Below are positions 3 through 12,161 of a DNA stretch of 64,000 bases, one piece after another (the first letter of the stretch is position 1; every line of letters begins with the position of its first letter). The notes beneath the pieces are model-generated. The model was given only the letters and a program-made list of their open reading frames with translations. It had not been told where the DNA came from and did not search any database. Location of the stretch: the NCBI GenBank assembly GCA_003023405.1, contig PXST01000004.1, positions 1-64,000 of the forward strand, in the 5' to 3' direction. The position numbers and the translations under genes are program-made. This DNA is from Halobacteriales archaeon SW_8_68_21. GTDB lineage: Archaea > Halobacteriota > Halobacteria > Halobacteriales > Haloferacaceae.

Positions 3-503
3 ACACTCGCGGCCCGGCACGCGGGCGACGGTCCGAACGACGACGGAAGGGCGGGCGGCACCGGTGACGGGGACGACCAACTCCCCGACGAGGCGGCCGT
101 CCGCGCGTCGATGGCCGGGGTCGCGACGGTCCTCTACCCGAGCGAAGTCGACGGCGTCGAGCGGTTCGTCGACCGCTTCCTCGACGGCCGGCTCGACGGA
201 TCGGGCCACGCAGAGGGGGTCCGCGAGGCGATCGGAGAACTCGACGGCGCGGCTCGGTCGTGGCACGGGGCCCCGATCACCGAGCTCTCCGAGGGCGACC
301 GCGACCGGCTCCTCCGAGAGGTCGGAGCCGACACCGCCGAGGAGGGCCCGGACGGGACGCTCGCGGAGCGAGTGCGCTACTACGTCGTCAACGAGCTCCT
401 ACTCGCGCTGTACGCCTCTCCGACGGGCGGCGAGCTGGTCGGACTGGAGAACCCGCAGGGACACCCGGGCGGGACCGAGAGCTACCGGCGAGGCCCGCGA
501 TGA
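3..503 (+). CDS. Gluconate 2-dehydrogenase subunit 3-like protein (partial, open at left edge)
   Basis: Frame is open from window start through the 111..503 ORF; ends just before a GMC oxidoreductase, the usual partner of gluconate DH subunit 3 family proteins. Confidence 0.6.
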   Translation, partial: TLAARHAGDGPNDDGRAGGTGDGDDQLPDEAAVRASMAGVATVLYPSEVDGVERFVDRFLDGRLDGSGHAEGVREAIGELDGAARSWHGAPITELSEGDRDRLLREVGADTAEEGPDGTLAERVRYYVVNELLLALYASPTGGELVGLENPQGHPGGTESYRRGPR

Positions 504-2143
504 GCGCGGAGGACGCCCGAGACAGGGAGACGAAGCGGGCCGCGAGCCGCGACATTGACCGCTCCCCGGTCGCGAACGCGGACGTCTGCGTCGTCGGTGC
601 CGGCCCCGCGGGCGGGCTCGTGGCGGACCGGCTGGCCGCCGACCACGACGTGGTCGTCCTCGACGCCGGCCCCCGCTTCGACCCCGCGGACCGGCTCGCG
701 CGACAGGAGCGGGCGATCCGTCCGAGCTACGACCGGCCCGACGTGTGGGACGTGGGCGGCGAGCGCGACGCCCACGCCAACTCCGGCGAGTGGTTCTACC
801 CGCTGAACCACGCCCGCGTCAAGGGGGTCGGTGGGTCGACGCTCCACTGGCAAGGGATGGTGATGCGGCTCCACGAGGACGATTTTAACTCCGAGACCGA
901 GCGCGGCGTCGGCACGGACTGGCCGATCGAGTACGAGGACCTCCGGCCCTACTACGCCGAGGCCGAGCAGGAGCTGGGCGTCGCGGGCGGAAGCAACATC
1001 GACAACCCGTACGCGCCGCCGCGCGAGGAGCCGCACCCCATGCGTCCCTTCGAGCCGTCGTACAGCGACTCGCTGTTCGAGGAGGCCTGCGAGGAACTGG
1101 GGATCGACATACACTCGGTCCCGAACGCGCGCAACTCCGAGCCATACGACGGTCGCTCCGCCTGCGTCGGCTACGGCACCTGCCAGCCCGTCTGTCCGGC
1201 CGGCGCGAAGTACGACGCGACGGTCCACGTCGAGCGCGCGGAGGAGCGGGGCGCGACGGTCATCGATCGGGCACCGGTCGAGCAACTCGAACACGACGGG
1301 AACGACCAGGTCACGACGGCCGTCTACGCGACGCCCAACGGCGAGACCCACAGGCAGGAGGCGGACGCGTTCGTCGTCGCTTGCGGCGGCGTCGAGACGC
1401 CGCGCCTCCTGCTTTTGTCCGAGTCCGACGAGTATCTCGATGGTCTCGCTAACTCCAGTGGGACGGTCGGGAAGTTCTTCATGGACCACCTGTTCGCCGG
1501 GGCAGGCGGGACGCTCGACGAGCCGACCCGACAGAACCACGTCGGCTTCTACACCAGAGCCTGCGACCAGTTCTACGACGAAGCCGACGAGACGCAGGCC
1601 CCGTTCAAGCTAGAGTTCTTCAACTACGCCGGGCCCTCGCCCGTCGGGATGGCTCTTTCCGGCGACGACTGGGGGGACGACCTCTTAGAGCGGCTCCGCG
1701 ACGGCTACGGCACCCACGTGGCGATGGGCGGGCTGGTCGAACAGCTCCCTCGGTCGGACAGCTACGTCGGGCTCGACCCCGACCGCACCGACGACCGCGG
1801 CAACCCCGTCCCCGATATCCACTGGAACGTCGGGGATCGGGCGCTCCGGACGGTCGAACGCGCCAACGAGATCCAGCGGTCGGTCCTCGAAGAGCTGGGC
1901 ACGGAGGTCGAGTGGGTCGCCGGCCCCGACGCGACCGGTCCCGCCTACCACCACATGGGCACCACCCGGATGAGCGACGACCCGGCCGCGGGCGTCGTCG
2001 ACGCCGACTGCCGGACCCACGACCTCGACAACTGCTGGATCGCCTCCAGCTCGGTGTTCCCCACCAGCGGCGCGATGAACCCCACGCTCACGATCGCCGC
2101 GCTGGCGCTTCGCGTCGCCGATAACGTTCGAGAGCGGCTCTAA
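500..2143 (+). CDS. GMC family oxidoreductase (FAD-dependent, gluconate/choline dehydrogenase-like)
   Basis: N-terminal dinucleotide-binding motif VCVVGAGPAGGLVADRLA, GVGGSTLHWQG, C-terminal AYHHMGTTRMSDDPAAGVVD...SSSVFPTSGAMNPTLTIAALALR; ATG at 500. Confidence 0.9.
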   Translation: MSAEDARDRETKRAASRDIDRSPVANADVCVVGAGPAGGLVADRLAADHDVVVLDAGPRFDPADRLARQERAIRPSYDRPDVWDVGGERDAHANSGEWFYPLNHARVKGVGGSTLHWQGMVMRLHEDDFNSETERGVGTDWPIEYEDLRPYYAEAEQELGVAGGSNIDNPYAPPREEPHPMRPFEPSYSDSLFEEACEELGIDIHSVPNARNSEPYDGRSACVGYGTCQPVCPAGAKYDATVHVERAEERGATVIDRAPVEQLEHDGNDQVTTAVYATPNGETHRQEADAFVVACGGVETPRLLLLSESDEYLDGLANSSGTVGKFFMDHLFAGAGGTLDEPTRQNHVGFYTRACDQFYDEADETQAPFKLEFFNYAGPSPVGMALSGDDWGDDLLERLRDGYGTHVAMGGLVEQLPRSDSYVGLDPDRTDDRGNPVPDIHWNVGDRALRTVERANEIQRSVLEELGTEVEWVAGPDATGPAYHHMGTTRMSDDPAAGVVDADCRTHDLDNCWIASSSVFPTSGAMNPTLTIAALALRVADNVRERL

Positions 2144-2150
2144 CAATTGC

Positions 2151-2166
2151 TTTAGGTAAACCTAAA
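2151..2166. promoter_or_regulatory. DtxR/SirR/Idr-like iron-box palindrome TTTAGGTAAACCTAAA
   Basis: Perfect 7-bp inverted repeat TTTAGGT-AA-ACCTAAA, upstream of the GT2 gene starting at 2200. Confidence 0.75.
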
Positions 2167-2199
2167 AGCTCAAGTGGGTGGAGCGATCCCTTCGGAATA

Positions 2200-2943
2200 A
2201 TGAGTTCACTCAGCGCGAACGGGTCGGCCGACGAGGTCGATGAGACGGGGGACGGAGCGGCAACCGCGACCGACGACGCCGAGCGCGTCGAGGACCGCTA
2301 CACCTTCGACGACCTCAGCGTCGTGATGGGGACGTACAACGAGGAGGAGGCGATCGGAACGGTCCTCGAAGACATCGACGAGGTCACCGGCGGGAAGGCC
2401 GAGATCGTCTGCGTCGACGGCTCCTCAGACCGGACCCCGGAGATCGCCCGCGAACACGGTGCGACGGTCGTAGAGCAGGAGCCGCAGGGGTACGGCGTCG
2501 CGGTGCGGGAGGCGATCTTGACCCCCGACCGCTCGGTCGTCGTCACGACCGACTGCGACGACACCTATCCGATGGAGGCGCTCCCGGAGTTCCTCGCCGA
2601 GATCAACGACGGCGCGGAGGCAATGCCGGTGTTCAACCGCCTCGGCAACCCCGGGTTCGCGGCCGTCGCGAGCCTCTTGATGGGAGAGCGCGTTCACGAC
2701 ACCACCACCGGGATGCGCGCGTACCGCCGCGAGGTCGTCGAGGGGATCGACTGGACCGAGAACACCGGGCTCTCCGCGGAACTCCTGATCCGGCCGCTGA
2801 TGCGCGGCTACGACGTGCGCGAGCGCCCGATCCACTACGCCGAGCGCCTCGGCGAGACGAAGCTCGACCCGATCGGCGGCGGCGCGGCCATCGCGAAGTC
2901 GATCGTCACCGTCTGTCTCGAAGAGCAGCTGCGACGGTTCTGA
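2200..2943 (+). CDS. Glycosyltransferase family 2 (dolichyl-phosphate sugar synthase-like)
   Basis: VVMGTYNEEEAIGTVLEDI, IVCVDGSSDRTPEIAREHGATVV, DDTYPMEALPEFL, HDTTTGMRAYRREV motifs. Confidence 0.85.
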   Translation: MSSLSANGSADEVDETGDGAATATDDAERVEDRYTFDDLSVVMGTYNEEEAIGTVLEDIDEVTGGKAEIVCVDGSSDRTPEIAREHGATVVEQEPQGYGVAVREAILTPDRSVVVTTDCDDTYPMEALPEFLAEINDGAEAMPVFNRLGNPGFAAVASLLMGERVHDTTTGMRAYRREVVEGIDWTENTGLSAELLIRPLMRGYDVRERPIHYAERLGETKLDPIGGGAAIAKSIVTVCLEEQLRRF

Positions 2944-2992
2944 GCGGCGGCGACTCGTTATAAACGACTGTTTATAAACGACGGAAAACAGC

Positions 2993-5218
2993 TCACTCCG
3001 CCTCCTCGACGGCCACCGTCTCGAAGGTGACCCACTCCGAGTGGGCGTCCGGGTCTTCGGGGAGGTAGGTTCCCTCCGTCCCGCATTCCGTCGTGAGCCG
3101 ACAGACGAACCGCTCCGGGGGCCAGATCGCCTCGACGCCCTCGTCCGTCGTCCGGACCGTCACCTCCTGCCGATACGTGAACGTCGAGCCCGCGGGGTCG
3201 ACGAGCGTCACCGTCACGATCACCTCGTCGCCCGCGGGGTCGGTCGGGACGGTCGCGTTCGATACACCGGCCAGCCGCGCGCCCTCGGGCGTCAGCGACC
3301 ATCCGGCCTGAAGCGATCCGTTGGGGTCGCGCACGGCGTACTCGACGTCGGCCGTCTCGCCGGCGGCGGCGGGCTCGCCGCGCACGGTCTCCAGTCGAAC
3401 GACCGCGCGTTGAACGCGGTCGGGGACGCCGACCGTCGCCGTCGCGTCGATCCGCGCTCCCTGACGGACGTCGAGTGATTCAAGCTTCGGCGCGACGTGT
3501 CGGTCCGGTTCTGGCGTCCACGTGCCCCGATACGCGTAGCGGTGGAGTTCCCGGTCGGGATACGCGTCGATCACCGCGAAGTCCTCGACCGGATCCCGGT
3601 CGAGCGCGTACACCGCCTCGCCGTCCAGCCCGGGGTCGTTCCGGAGCGGCTGGAAGGGATGGCCGAGCCACTCGCCGTACGGGGTCGGAACGAACACGAG
3701 GTCGTCGTCGAAGTCGGCCGACTCGATCGGCTCGTAGGCCGCCTCGTGCTTGTCGGCGTGGGCCACGTGACGGTCGAGAGGCTCCTCGGCCGCAGCCGCG
3801 GCACCGAGGACGCCGCCGAGGAGCGCGAACACTGCGACCGCCGCGACGACTGCCCGCGCCGTTCCCCCCGTGGTCCGAGACCCGAGCCACACGCGAAGCC
3901 GAGAGAGCCCCCGGCCGCCGGTGACGACGGCGAGGCCGCCGAAGACCGACAGCGGAACGAGGAGGTCGAAGTGGTAGAACGGCCCGAAGCCAGATATCAG
4001 TCCGTCGGTCGGGTCCGAGAACGTCGCGAGGAGGTTGTTCGTCCCCCAGAAGAACAGGTTCCCGACGACGACGGAGACGACGACGCCGCCGAGGAGGAGT
4101 CCGGCGGTTCGCTCGAACGCCGGTTCCGCGGGAGCGTCGACGCCGCCGTCTCCTGGAACCCCCGACGCGCGTCGCCCCGACAGCCAAGCCCGCGCGGCCA
4201 GGCCGGTCCCCGCGAGCGCGAGCAGTGTGCCGAGCGGCCCGGCGACCACCCAGCGCGTGGCGAGGTACCACAGCGCGTACCCGTTCGACCGAAGCGCCAG
4301 CTCGGGCGTGTACTCCTCGCTGTGTCCGAGTATCCGCCGCTCGCCGAATCCGGGGCCGTCCATCGGCGCGAACGCCTCGTACGGGAACGTCAGGAGCGAG
4401 CCCGTCACTCGGAGGTTGTACGCCAGCGTGACGCCGACGAAGAGGGTACCGAGAAGCGCCGTGAGCCCGTGACGGCGTACCGAAGCGGGGAGGGGGAGCG
4501 GGGGTAGTCCGGTGTCCCAAAGCGCGATGGCGGTCCGAACGACCGCGTGGAGGATGAACGGAGCCGCGAACAGCACCGCCGTGAACGGCCGGGCGAAGAA
4601 GGCGAGTCCGATCGCGAGGCCAGCGAGGCCGGCGAGCGGGAGCGACCGATCGCGGACGCCTCGGAGGTACGCAACCGCGAACAGCAGGTTCAGGAACGTC
4701 GTCGGCGCGTACGGGAGGAACACCGAGGAGGTGACGACCGCCATCGGCGACGCCGCGAACAGGACGGCGGCCGCGAGACCGACCCGCCGGTCAAAGACGG
4801 TCGACCCGAGCAGGTACACGAGCGCGGCGTTGCCAGCGGCAATCGCTGCGAGCGTCACCCGCGGCTCGCCGAACAGCCACATCGTCACCGCGTACGTCGC
4901 GGCGGGAACCGGGTTGTACTTCGGGTAGAGTCGTCCGCCGTCCTCAACGAAGAACCACGGGTGGAAAGCGTCGGCCAGCGCGCCGGCGTGGAACGCCAAC
5001 TGTCCGTCCAGAAGCAACGCGGCCTGTGTGAGATACACGCCCTCGTCGTGGTTGAACGAGTGGTACCCAAAGACGGTCGTCGCGATGGCGAACGTCAGGA
5101 GTCCGGTGACGAGCGAGATCAGCGCCGCCGCGACGGTGAGCCGGTCGACGCGAGCGACGCGCTCACGGGCACGGTTTGCGAGTCGGTCCGGAAAGACACG
5201 GTCGAAGCGAAGCGACAC
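2993..5218 (-). CDS. Large multi-TM glycosyltransferase (ArnT/PMT GT39-like membrane protein) with C-terminal extracellular domain
   Basis: 741 aa, many TM segments, N-terminal HSFNHDEGVYLTQAALLLDGQ (acidic motif of GT39/GT83-like enzymes). Confidence 0.7.
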   Translation of the reverse strand: MSLRFDRVFPDRLANRARERVARVDRLTVAAALISLVTGLLTFAIATTVFGYHSFNHDEGVYLTQAALLLDGQLAFHAGALADAFHPWFFVEDGGRLYPKYNPVPAATYAVTMWLFGEPRVTLAAIAAGNAALVYLLGSTVFDRRVGLAAAVLFAASPMAVVTSSVFLPYAPTTFLNLLFAVAYLRGVRDRSLPLAGLAGLAIGLAFFARPFTAVLFAAPFILHAVVRTAIALWDTGLPPLPLPASVRRHGLTALLGTLFVGVTLAYNLRVTGSLLTFPYEAFAPMDGPGFGERRILGHSEEYTPELALRSNGYALWYLATRWVVAGPLGTLLALAGTGLAARAWLSGRRASGVPGDGGVDAPAEPAFERTAGLLLGGVVVSVVVGNLFFWGTNNLLATFSDPTDGLISGFGPFYHFDLLVPLSVFGGLAVVTGGRGLSRLRVWLGSRTTGGTARAVVAAVAVFALLGGVLGAAAAAEEPLDRHVAHADKHEAAYEPIESADFDDDLVFVPTPYGEWLGHPFQPLRNDPGLDGEAVYALDRDPVEDFAVIDAYPDRELHRYAYRGTWTPEPDRHVAPKLESLDVRQGARIDATATVGVPDRVQRAVVRLETVRGEPAAAGETADVEYAVRDPNGSLQAGWSLTPEGARLAGVSNATVPTDPAGDEVIVTVTLVDPAGSTFTYRQEVTVRTTDEGVEAIWPPERFVCRLTTECGTEGTYLPEDPDAHSEWVTFETVAVEEAE

Positions 5219-5242
5219 GGGCGAGAGGAACCGTTCGAACGC

Positions 5243-6373
5243 CTATAGTTCAGCGCCGGCCTCGCGCATGAGGTCGACTGTCGGTTCCAGGTCGGAAAGC
5301 TCCGTCAGGTCGATGTCGGGGACATCGAGCTCATCGATCGTAGGGAGACCGCCGATCGGCTCGATGTCGGGGATCAGCGGGTACTCGAAGGTCGTCCGGG
5401 CGAAGTAGTCCTGCGCCTCCGCCGACAGCAGGTGCCGGACGAAGTTCTCCGCGAGGGTCGCGTCCGAGGTGCTGTCGACGACCGTGGCACCGGCGACGTT
5501 GAACACCGCACCGGCGTCACCGCGGGTGAAGGCCGTGGCGATGGAGGCCTCCGGGTTGCCGTCAAGGACCCGCTGGATGTAGTAGTGGTTCGTGAACGCC
5601 GCGTCGATCTCGCCGTTCGCGACCGCCTGACAGGCGGCGAACTCGTCGGGGTAGCTGGTGATGCCGGAGTCGACGACGGCTTCGACCCACTCGCGGGTGG
5701 CCTCCTCACCTTCGATCAGCCGCATCGCGGTGATGAACGCCTGACAGGAGCCGTAGGAGGGTGCCCAGCCGAGGTCGCCGTCGAACTCCTCGGGGAACGC
5801 CATGACGTCGTCCGGGACATCTCCCTCGGAGAAATCGTCGGTGTTGTACGGGATCGTCCGTGCCCGCCCCGAGGTGCCGATCCACTGGTCCGTGTGGAAC
5901 TCGTCGCGGACCAGGTCAGTAATCTCGGAGGGGAGCTCCCCCGTCCGTCCCTCGTTGGCGAGCGCGCCGAGCGACCCGGAGTTGACCGAGTAGAATACGT
6001 CCGCCGGCGACCCCGCTCCCTCGTTGGTGATCTGATTCACGAGATCGGTCGAGCCGCCGTAGCGGACCGTCAGGTCAAAGTCGTCGTACAGGTCCTCGAT
6101 GTACTCGATGAGTTCGCCGACGAGGAACTCGCCCCGTCCCGAGTAGACGGTGAGTTCACCCGACAGGTCGGGCATGTCGGCCATCGACGTACCGCCGGGA
6201 AGTCCGCGCCCCTCGCGGCCGGACCCGATCTGTCCGATGTTCGACTGTGAGTCGCCGCCGGAGTCGTCAGTCGTCCCGTTACAGCCCGCGAGTCCGACCG
6301 CGCCGACCGCGGCGGCGCTTGCGAGGTAGCGTCTGCGATACATCTTCGTCTCGGCTTGGTCGTGGTTCGTCAT
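5243..6373 (-). CDS. Iron(III)-type ABC transporter substrate-binding lipoprotein (Tat lipoprotein); start could be 6343
   Basis: MYRRRYLASAAAVGAVGLAGC twin-Arg plus lipobox; ELTVYSGRGEFLVGELIEYIE...VRYGGSTDLVNQI, PADVFYS pattern of FutA/FbpA-type proteins. Confidence 0.85.
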   Translation of the reverse strand: MTNHDQAETKMYRRRYLASAAAVGAVGLAGCNGTTDDSGGDSQSNIGQIGSGREGRGLPGGTSMADMPDLSGELTVYSGRGEFLVGELIEYIEDLYDDFDLTVRYGGSTDLVNQITNEGAGSPADVFYSVNSGSLGALANEGRTGELPSEITDLVRDEFHTDQWIGTSGRARTIPYNTDDFSEGDVPDDVMAFPEEFDGDLGWAPSYGSCQAFITAMRLIEGEEATREWVEAVVDSGITSYPDEFAACQAVANGEIDAAFTNHYYIQRVLDGNPEASIATAFTRGDAGAVFNVAGATVVDSTSDATLAENFVRHLLSAEAQDYFARTTFEYPLIPDIEPIGGLPTIDELDVPDIDLTELSDLEPTVDLMREAGAEL

Positions 6374-6377
6374 ATGT

Positions 6378-6393
6378 TTTAGGCTTACCTAAA
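6378..6393. promoter_or_regulatory. Iron-box palindrome TTTAGGCTTACCTAAA
   Basis: Same 6-bp arms as the 2151 site; directly upstream of the binding-protein gene (start 6373). Confidence 0.75.
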
Positions 6394-6412
6394 TGGTTTT
6401 AGTCGTGTCGGT

Positions 6413-7594
6413 TCAGTCGTCCGCGACCGCGGGCGTCCGGCTGACGGCGTCGAGGCAGTCGAGCCAGTCGCGCATGTACTCGCCGCAGTGGTTGAGGAAC
6501 GCGCCGTTGTTCCACTCGGAGAACTCTCCCTCCGCGAGCGCGTCCGCCATCTCGGCGAACGCGTCCGCGTACGAGTCGGCGTCGTCGCCGACCCCGTCAA
6601 TCACCTTCCAGACGTGTTCGTTCAGCTCCAGTCCCGCCACCTCGTTCGCGAGGTCGTCGAACGTCGAGCGCGGGGCCTTGTTGTGTTCACAGAGGGGGTC
6701 GCCGTTGTAGATCCGCTTGCCCAGCACGTCGGAGGCGCGTTTTAAGAACAGCCCCGACCAGATGTCGTCGAACCGGCCCACGTCCCACTCGTTGTCGTCC
6801 ATCGGCAGCTGGTAGAAGGCGGGGATCACCTCGCGACGGAACGCGAGGTTCATCGAGCAGACGGTGAGGTAGTCGCCGCGCCCGGCGACGAAGTCGCGCT
6901 CGAAGTCGTCGGCGGTCGTCCGCGTCTGCGCCTGTCCCTCCAAGTCGCCGTCCATCAAGATTCGGACGGCGTCGAGGTCGGGGACGTTCGTCCACAGCCC
7001 CTGCGAGGCGACGACCTCGCCGGACTCGACCGCGACCGAGTCCGTCTCGACCGTCTCGTCCATCGCGGCGTAGGGGTAGCCGCGGGGGTACAACCCGTGT
7101 TCGTCGGCGTTCTGGTAGAGGACGTTCACCCAGTGCTCGTCGGAGCGTGCGCACTCGATCTCGCCACCGAACGCGAGGTTCTCCATGTGACGGCCGAAGT
7201 AGTTGATGTCGTCGTGCGGCAGCGTGTCGTCGTCGATGAACACGCCGTACTCGAACGACTCGTCGGCCCACATGTACAGCAGGCCGAAGCTCGTCTCGGC
7301 GTGGCTCGCGGCGGGCACGAGATGGTCGTACTCGGCGACCCCGTTGGCCTCGTACCACTCCTCGCGGCGGGTCCCGTCGAACACCCCGCCGGAGACATCC
7401 AGCTCGTTGAGCATGTCGCGCATCTCATCGACGTCACAGAAGTCCTCGGTGACGAGAACGAAGTGGAGCCGCGAGAGGTCGAACTCGTGCTCGCGGGCGT
7501 TCGCGACATACTCGCGGAGACACTCGTACTCCCGGATCGTCGGGACGATCACGCAGACATCCGGACCGTCGCGGTCCGAGGTGGTCGCATCCAT
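6413..7594 (-). CDS. Reversibly glycosylated polypeptide / alpha-1,4-glucan-protein synthase-like glycosyltransferase
   Basis: VCVIVPTIREYECL start, FGVFIDDDTLP-type DDD motif (YGVFIDDDTLPHDDINYFGRH), SMNLAFRREVIPAFYQLPM; overall layout of RGP family. Confidence 0.7.
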   Translation of the reverse strand: MDATTSDRDGPDVCVIVPTIREYECLREYVANAREHEFDLSRLHFVLVTEDFCDVDEMRDMLNELDVSGGVFDGTRREEWYEANGVAEYDHLVPAASHAETSFGLLYMWADESFEYGVFIDDDTLPHDDINYFGRHMENLAFGGEIECARSDEHWVNVLYQNADEHGLYPRGYPYAAMDETVETDSVAVESGEVVASQGLWTNVPDLDAVRILMDGDLEGQAQTRTTADDFERDFVAGRGDYLTVCSMNLAFRREVIPAFYQLPMDDNEWDVGRFDDIWSGLFLKRASDVLGKRIYNGDPLCEHNKAPRSTFDDLANEVAGLELNEHVWKVIDGVGDDADSYADAFAEMADALAEGEFSEWNNGAFLNHCGEYMRDWLDCLDAVSRTPAVADD

Positions 7595-7605
7595 ACCCGA
7601 TTCTT

Positions 7606-7621
7606 TTTAGGCTTACCTAAA
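7606..7621. promoter_or_regulatory. Iron-box palindrome TTTAGGCTTACCTAAA
   Basis: Identical 16-mer to the 6378 site, 12 bp upstream of the start codon at 7594. Confidence 0.75.
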
Positions 7622-7624
7622 AGT

Positions 7625-8695
7625 TTAGCGGTCCGTCGCTGGCCGGGTCGCGGCCGCGTCCGGTTCCCGCTCCGACTCGCCCGGACCGCGGAGCGCCGAG
7701 AGGTCGAACGCGGCCGCGACGAGGCCGCCGCCGGCGAGCGTGACGGCGTTTTTCAGCGCGTGGTCGAGCGCCGCCGCAGCGAGCGCGGTCTCGGCCGGTA
7801 TCGGTGTCGTGGCGACGACGATACCGGTGAACGCCGCCTCGTAGAGTCCGATCCCCCCCTGCGAGAGCGGCAACACCTTTGCGAGGTTCCCGGCCGAGAC
7901 GGCGAGCGTCCCGACGACGAAAAGCGTCGCGGGGTCGACTCCGCCCCCAAAGCCCCCCACGAGCGCGGCGAGTACGAACACCGCGGTCAGGGCGTCCGCC
8001 GCCCACACGACGCCGCTCGCGAGCGACACCCGAGCGACCGCGCCCGCGTCGGCGGCGACGACCCGGACGGCGGCACCGAATCGGACCGCGGCGTCGACGG
8101 CCCCCGAGAGCCGGGACCCGCTCGCGCGCTCGCGGAGGGCCGGACCGAAACGCCGGTCGCCGCGAGCGACCGCGACCGTGAGTGCGGACCCCAGCGCGGC
8201 GGCGAGAGCGGTTCCGGCGGCGGCCGCGACCGCCAGTTCCGATCCGCCCGGGGCCACCGTCCGCCCGTCGAGGAGGAGGGCGGCGAGCGCGGCCCCACCG
8301 AGCGCGCCGAGCGCGACCAAATCGAAGGCGCGCTCGACCGCCAGCGACGCGACGCCGGTCGGGTACGGGACCTCGCGCCGGCGCTTCAGGAGGTACGCGC
8401 GGACTCCGTCGCCCGCCCGCGCGGGGACGATCAGGTTCGCGGTCTGGCTTGCGAACACGGCCGCCGTGAGGAAGCCGGTCCGACAGCGGTGTCCCATCGG
8501 CGCGAGGACGTCGCCGTACCGGCGGCCCCGGACCGGCCACGACAGTAGGTAGACGACGAGCGCCCCGAAGAGGAGTCGGGGGTCGGCAGTCGCCGCGGCC
8601 TTCCCGCGACCGCGAGCGATCCCCGCGGGAGGCGCTCTCGGGTCCCGGAGAGCCGTTCGCGGAGCCGAGCGACGACGACGCGGAGCTTCATCCAT
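7625..8695 (-). CDS. Lysylphosphatidylglycerol synthase TM region / UPF0104-like (flippase-like) membrane protein
   Basis: Multi-TM; RAGDGVRAYLLKRRREVPYPTGVASLAVERAFDL and SAGNLAKVLPLSQGGIGLYEAAFTGIV motifs of the family. Confidence 0.8.
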   Translation of the reverse strand: MDEAPRRRRSAPRTALRDPRAPPAGIARGRGKAAATADPRLLFGALVVYLLSWPVRGRRYGDVLAPMGHRCRTGFLTAAVFASQTANLIVPARAGDGVRAYLLKRRREVPYPTGVASLAVERAFDLVALGALGGAALAALLLDGRTVAPGGSELAVAAAAGTALAAALGSALTVAVARGDRRFGPALRERASGSRLSGAVDAAVRFGAAVRVVAADAGAVARVSLASGVVWAADALTAVFVLAALVGGFGGGVDPATLFVVGTLAVSAGNLAKVLPLSQGGIGLYEAAFTGIVVATTPIPAETALAAAALDHALKNAVTLAGGGLVAAAFDLSALRGPGESEREPDAAATRPATDR

Positions 8696-8698
8696 TTA

Positions 8699-8714
8699 TT
8701 TAGGTCGCCCTAAA
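8699..8714. promoter_or_regulatory. Iron-box-like palindrome TTTAGGTCGCCCTAAA
   Basis: Perfect TTTAGG/CCTAAA arms; 4 bp upstream of the flippase-like gene start (8695), in the divergent gap to the rhomboid gene. Confidence 0.65.
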
Positions 8715-11200: not shown

Positions 11201-12161
11201 TTACTCTAGTCGCCCCACGTCGCCGAGGACCGCGCTCGCGGTCTCGGGGCCGCCCGCGCCGCGCCCGGAGGTGTTGAGCCGACCGGCGTGGGAGGTCTCG
11301 ATCTGGACGATGTTCTGGGTTCCAGAGACCGCGAGCGTCCCGTTCTCGGGGATGAGCCGCGGCGCGACGCGGACCGTGTCGCCGGTCGCCTCGCCGATGA
11401 GTCGCACCGTCCGCCCGTCATCGCCGCGTCCGTCTCTCCCGCGCGTCCGCCGGGTCGTCGGCCGCGCCGAACGAGAGGACGTTCGCGAGGATCACGCACT
11501 TCAGCGCCGCGTCGGTCCCGTCCACGTCGAAGGAGGGGTCCGCCTCGGCGACGCCGAGGTCCTGTGCCTCCGCGAGCACGTGGTCGTAGTCGAGGCCCTC
11601 CGCGGCCATCCGCGTGAGGATGAAGTTCGCCGTCCCGTTGAGCACGCCGCGGACCGCGGTGACGTGGCCCGGATCGATGTCCTCGACGGTCGAGACCGCC
11701 GGGATCGCGCCGCCGACCGTCGCCTCGAACCGGATCTCGCCGTCGCTGTCGTCGACGGCCGCCCGCAGGTCGCCGAACCGCTCGGCCACCGGCCCCTTGT
11801 TCGCGAGGACGGCGTGGCGGTCGCGCTCCAGCGCGCGGGTCACGTGCGAGAAGCCGGGCTCGGCGTCGCCGAGCGTCGTCGGCGTCGCCTCGATCAGGAC
11901 GTCGTAGTCGGCCGCGAGCGCGTCAGCGGGGTCGTCGTCGCCGACGATCCCGCGTTCCGCCTTCCGCGCGACGACGGCGTCCGGGTCGACGCCGACCGCG
12001 TCGTCTCCGCCGTCGCCGCCGCGAGTCCCGCCCGCACCGCTCGCGTCCGCGACGACCGCGCTCGACGAGTCCGCGACGGCGACGACCTCGTGGCCGTACT
12101 CGCCCGCGAGCTCGACGACGGAGCGCCCGACCGCGCCCGCGCCGATCACGGCGAGTCTCAC
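11201..12161 (-). pseudogene. hom: Homoserine dehydrogenase, split by frameshift/internal loss near 11420-11445
   Basis: MRLAVIGAGAVGRSVVELAG...KGPVAERFGDLR...GVLNGTANFILTRM (11418..12161) continues in another frame as DGRTVRLIGEATGDTVRVAPRLIPENGTLAVSGTQNIVQIETSHAGRLNTSGRGAGGPETASAVLGDV (11201..~11420). Confidence 0.8.

Follow-up and report, generated by a model that had tools for sequence, protein, structure and literature searches.

A predicted iron-starvation regulon joining ferric-iron import to a dolichol-linked glycosylation module in haloarchaea

Haloarchaeal DtxR-family regulons (the FerR signal, Idr1/Idr2 of Halobacterium and Idr/SirR/TroR of Haloferax) have a TTAGG/CCTAA palindrome before FhuD-like, FecCD-type and Fbp-type genes, a feature shared by the system analysed here, in which the palindrome is, however, also found on a glycosylation module and an FAD sugar dehydrogenase. 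The half-sites of the corynebacterial DtxR operator, TTAGGTTAG(G/C)CTAACCTAA, recur as well (PMC1382209), although here they lie 4 bases apart instead of 9, in archaeal promoters and before other targets. Counterparts of the encoded proteins have also been described. The FbpABC ferric-iron ABC transporter has an FbpA-type binder, here with invariant NHYY and, in relatives, with permease and ATPase genes that are adjacent or under the same box, whereas the binder of this locus adjoins a GT-C glycosyltransferase and a GT75 mutase. In sugar transfer from lipid carriers, AglD/AglR/AglS of Haloferax and ArnC/ArnT of bacteria likewise combine a GT2 synthase with a membrane flippase and a GT-C transferase, but the set described here differs by a DUF7846 outer domain, a predicted furanose-forming partner and the iron box. 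Finally, FAD-glucose and fructose dehydrogenases are similar to the locus in the catalytic subunit and share the small subunit and a CX5CX3C motif with it, while no cytochrome c subunit was seen among the annotated neighbours of the cluster.

The window, a 64-kb stretch starting at base 1 of its contig, belongs to a draft genome of 2.44 Mb (80% complete) whose nearest named relatives are Halorubrum species. A scan of the window confirmed the four TTTAGGN4CCTAAA palindromes listed in a preliminary description, namely box 1 (2151..2166; TTTAGGTAAACCTAAA), box 2 (6378..6393, given there as identical to box 3), box 3 (7606..7621) and box 4 (8699..8714), where none is expected in shuffled sequence; weaker sites adding convincingly to the four were not found within the 64 kb. 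As that description had stated, each box lies just upstream of a start codon (33, 4, 11 and 7 bases for boxes 1 to 4), and the TTAGG and CCTAA half-sites match the DtxR-type consensus. The genome-wide scan that it had proposed returned seven sites and none for a reversed control pattern, the three further boxes preceding genes for a FhuD-like siderophore/iron-binding lipoprotein, an FbpC-type ATPase (by a few bases) and a PAS sensor kinase. The same operator is hence found at the promoters of several cluster units and before FhuD-like and FbpC-like iron-uptake genes of one genome. The box occurs in 97 of 98 haloarchaeal genomes, with approximately 800 sites against 14 for the control, both totals being hand sums of the per-genome table. 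Random frequency of the palindrome, which the preliminary description had named as a ground for giving up its proposal, can be set aside, since the counts are 7 against 0 in the genome and about 800 against 14 across genomes.

A Pfam search of the window yielded a GT2, weak PMT_2 together with DUF7846, a solute-binding protein, RGP, PF03706 and a gluconate_2-dh3/GMC pair. The forward strand carries a gluconate 2-dehydrogenase subunit 3-like gene (G2DH3; 111..503, PF13618) with its 5' part at the contig edge, the gene of a GMC-family FAD sugar dehydrogenase catalytic subunit (494..2143) and, behind box 1, the GT2 gene (2200..2943). Encoded on the reverse strand are a GT39-like GT-C transferase with a DUF7846 outer domain (2993..5218), a binding lipoprotein (SBP; 5243..6373) with box 2 before its start, the RGP protein of family GT75 (6413..7594), preceded by box 3, and a PF03706 flippase-like membrane protein (FLIP; 7625..8691), preceded by box 4. 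The N-terminal frame of the flippase gene (~8600-8691) is broken by a deletion in the assembly that shifts the frame, making ATG 8691 the probable start rather than 8695, and the GT2 gene is without 36 bp, or 12 residues, found in relatives. Both gaps may be draft-assembly errors, because the relatives are intact. A homoserine-dehydrogenase-like frame elsewhere in the window (11418-12161) also looks truncated and may represent another assembly indel.

Cluster and boxes are kept across a comparison set of 129 related haloarchaeal loci (2.25 Mb). The GT39 gene lies near RGP in all but one of these loci, the exception being a short contig, and 128 encode the iron-binding protein. Exact boxes number 380, of which 373 stand at the starts of RGP, SBP, GT2, FLIP or G2DH3, against none for the reversed control. 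When up to one mismatch was allowed, a box preceded RGP in 128/129 loci, GT2 in 99/101, SBP in 111/128, FLIP in 67/71 and G2DH3 in 72/93, while none was found before GT39, GMC or EF1A; GT39 and GMC are the second genes of their units. The 129 loci combine two partially overlapping sets, and the genus counts, drawn from one of them, are therefore the fairer measure (RGP 40/41, GT2 30/31, SBP 35/40, FLIP 17/18 and G2DH3 20/25). Some unboxed SBP genes, e.g. in Halobaculum, overlap RGP. In Natrinema-like genomes (e.g. loci L117 and L127) a variant that differs from the palindrome by one mismatch, TTTAGGTGGGCTTAAA, recurs as the FLIP box. The earlier claim of boxes at every transcription unit is correct for the five genes then named, but the set was incomplete, as the upstream G2DH3/GMC pair is also boxed in relatives; its box would be off-contig here because the window starts at the first base of the contig.

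Alignment of relatives on the box placed TTATAT directly upstream of it at FLIP and GATATAA at G2DH3, an AT-rich ACTAAA stretch at SBP and a weaker AT-rich stretch at RGP, so that an AT-rich (TATA-like) element precedes the box, and the start codon follows it, at four of the five promoters. The commonest first ATG follows 4-13 bases 3' of the box, and 31-33 bases in the case of GT2. The order of TATA-like element, box and ATG fits that expected for the operator of a DtxR-type repressor, and a protein bound to the box would mask the beginning of a leaderless transcript, again in keeping with repression. The GT2 box, approximately 32 nt from the ATG, might act otherwise than by repression.

The binding lipoprotein is most closely related to ferric-iron-binding proteins of solved structure (E 6e-58), and this relationship, together with paired tyrosines within an invariant NHYY, identifies it as an FbpA-type ferric-iron binder. 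In relatives, the genes for an iron permease and an ATPase are also under this box. The gene order in Haloarcula, Salarchaeum and Halobaculum is RGP, SBP, iron permease, ATPase and GT39, with genes that overlap or abut; Salarchaeum has eight codirectional genes, G2DH3/GMC and GT2 among them, and the Halorubrum permease gene is situated past the G2DH3 site. For the permease missing from the draft genome containing the window only matches of ~30% were found, which is consistent with the contig break. The other boxed genes are mostly for iron uptake (FhuD-like, FecCD-type and Fbp-type). The composition of five genes originally put forward accordingly needs amending: the lipoprotein is a predicted ferric-iron binder with a same-boxed permease and ATPase in relatives, and the cluster also includes the FAD sugar dehydrogenase. 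The central proposal of one regulon with a DtxR-type operator stands, given boxes at five cluster genes that are common to iron-uptake genes.

Complete Halorubrum genomes have a gene for a TroR-like DtxR-family protein in the vicinity of the cluster. In one Halorubrum genome (G209) a DtxR gene is located beside a sufB/D-type gene, ~5 kb from the main cluster, a setting that we take to be similar to that of the TroR gene of Haloferax volcanii. The incomplete genome of the window yielded no more than a single full-length gene of the DtxR family, which we count against our preferred explanation. G209 also has a second island with nine boxes (L212-L213, contig 1, ~4.7-30.1 kb), in which a paralogous version of the entire cluster is accompanied by genes for an FbpC-type ATPase, an FbpB-type permease, a Dps-like ferritin and a GalE-like epimerase and by dtxR genes. 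Boxes are likewise found upstream of genes for cupredoxin-domain lipoproteins (L212:8594-9163 and L212:11575-14040), one of them with DUF5059, and directly upstream of similar PAS histidine kinase genes in two genomes (L007:280-1500 and L213:9798-11057).

The RGP protein matches MtdL, an NDP-pyranose mutase of family GT75. Catalytic features of this family are a DXD motif, an autoglycosylated arginine, an Arg/Asp pair and a metal-binding histidine (PMC9937993). Their equivalents in the window protein, as mapped by us from the phmmer alignment, are D121-D123, R171, R274/D277 and H304, none of which varies among 17 diverse sequences; they correspond to DDD, R159, R257, D260 and H287 of the described mutases (MtdL, Hyg20 and plant RGP/UAM). 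Only two of the characterised GT75 members are bacterial and the rest are from plants (PMC9937993), whereas the window protein belongs to an archaeal branch and is, judged by its sequence, a candidate mutase. We replaced its first identification as an RGP-like glycosyltransferase, following the MtdL match, by that of a predicted nucleotide-sugar ring mutase converting NDP-pyranose to NDP-furanose, and the sugar used for glycosylation in the regulon is probably a furanose.

Similarity to dolichol-phosphate mannose synthase and ArnC marks the GT2 as dolichyl-phosphate hexose synthase-like. Lacking the 12 residues, it scores 352.9 bits against the NF041391 dolichyl-phosphate hexose transferase model, below the cut-off of 375 bits, while the copies of relatives score 391-414 bits. 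The flippase-like protein reaches the Pfam gathering score of PF03706, and flipping is its predicted role. The GT39 protein models confidently (pLDDT 91) as a GT-C transferase of the ArnT/AglB kind: the best Foldseek relatives are the GT-C enzymes AglB, ArnT, ALG9, PMT and mycobacterial Emb (10-16% identity), and N56, D58 and E59 of the acidic loop motif are invariant. In the GMC protein, matches to FAD-glucose and fructose dehydrogenases combine with the CX5CX3C motif and the gluconate_2-dh3 partner, as in a FAD sugar dehydrogenase complex. The earlier suggestion of a pathway that builds, flips and attaches a glycan is upheld insofar as the parts fit a lipid-carried sugar, but not in the role of the RGP-like protein, a predicted ring mutase (GT75) rather than a transferase.

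Site placement and conservation, protein families, catalytic residues, the GT-C model fold and co-occurrence were computed, and we infer iron repression, the order of steps and the furanose product. We favour, at a probability of roughly two in three, a regulon of haloarchaea that responds to iron starvation and in which high-affinity Fe3+ import is combined with a module for dolichol-linked glycosylation. When iron is replete, a metal-loaded DtxR-family protein, possibly TroR-like, would sit on TTTAGGN4CCTAAA around the promoter and block transcription; when iron is scarce, the units would be derepressed together. The FbpA-type lipoprotein would then import Fe3+ with the same-boxed permease and ATPase, while the GT75 enzyme would convert NDP-pyranose to NDP-furanose, the GT2 load a sugar onto dolichyl phosphate, the PF03706 protein flip the dolichol-linked sugar and the GT-C enzyme move the sugar to an extracellular acceptor. 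Oxidation of a sugar, probably also outside, would fall to the GMC/subunit-3 dehydrogenase.

Of the 294 haloarchaeal genomes sampled, 234 have the RGP gene. From this survey 40 genomes were chosen by GT75 status, 20 with and 20 without RGP, and GT75, DUF7846-GT39 and GT2 above the NF041391 cut-off were found in exactly the same 20 of the 40. No probability is claimed for this perfect split because the genomes were picked by GT75 status and are related, hence non-independent; the three genes nonetheless go together as one unit. Their link to iron has exceptions, as locus L084 has GT75, GT39 and GT2 side by side but neither an iron-binding protein nor any box within two mismatches, and in genomes G184 and G279 no FbpA-like protein was found at E<=1e-20. 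FbpA-like proteins are moreover present in most genomes that lack the glycan genes, which counts against the preferred explanation and led us to drop the iron-binding protein as an obligate partner of those genes.

L084, G184 and G279 favour an ordinary role of the glycan genes in S-layer or lipid glycan remodelling, in which the iron switch would merely follow from lying beside the transporter; the resemblance of the parts to AglD/AglS-type and ArnC/ArnT terminal sugar addition points the same way, and L084 suggests that iron control may travel with the transporter. Nevertheless, separate boxes are conserved before RGP, GT2, FLIP and G2DH3 across most genera, which argues for selection for iron control of each unit instead of passive sharing, and we regard ordinary remodelling as unlikely. 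An extension of the favoured regulon, in which a dedicated furanose-containing and possibly oxidised surface glycan would serve in Fe3+ capture or the working of FbpABC as glycan-assisted iron uptake, is speculative and rather doubtful. The glycan need not act on the transporter, because L084 has the trio with neither binder nor box, and glycosylation of the iron-binding lipoprotein by GT39, once entertained as the main idea, was weakened by L084, G184 and G279 lacking that protein.

Manganese sensors occur in the DtxR family, and the box might answer another metal such as manganese via an MntR-like regulator. The Salarchaeum cluster lies near a putative manganese transporter and GT75 enzymes use Mn2+ (PMC9937993), but the boxed FhuD-like, FecCD-type and Fbp-type genes are for iron uptake, making this reading improbable. 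Still less probable is a mainly redox product, in which the Tat-type subunit 3 and the FAD dehydrogenase would oxidise outside sugars and reduce Fe3+ or halocyanin, with glycosylation in a supporting or anchoring role: a separate box precedes G2DH3/GMC in 20 of 25 genera and cupredoxin-domain lipoproteins are boxed in G209, but GMC is present in only 82 of 129 loci and missing from many with the glycan trio, and its cysteine motif would itself need iron. Chance palindromes have a negligible likelihood, the shuffles giving an expectation of zero, the reversed-pattern control in the genome zero sites, and the positions being conserved.

No account of this gene set was found in a literature search that missed the main haloarchaeal iron-regulon studies, so that its novelty is provisional; the arrangement is in any case widespread in Halobacteria and not peculiar to this genome. 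In iron-starved H. volcanii, the UPF0104/PF03706 protein HVO_1859, a possible counterpart of the window flippase from the same family, rises 11.6-fold and a GalE-family protein 12.7-fold (PMC11349517). HVO_1859 and HVO_0655 provide literature leads for the cluster. Denitrifying H. mediterranei represses an iron(III) binding protein along with siderophore genes (PMC11218638).

The findings predict that archaeal surface glycosylation is switched by iron via a dedicated gene set. They also put forward an archaeal GT75 protein as a candidate mutase, suggest a role for the DUF7846 transferases and may account for the induction of the PF03706 protein in iron-starved H. volcanii. That species, in which the GT75 and DUF7846 families are both present, is a genetically tractable organism for testing the predictions, and L084 is a natural exception that could help to tell functions apart. 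That most haloarchaea keep genes for the extracellular attachment of an unusual sugar beside a ferric-iron importer, under the same predicted iron switch, suggests that their surface sugars may be altered at low iron.
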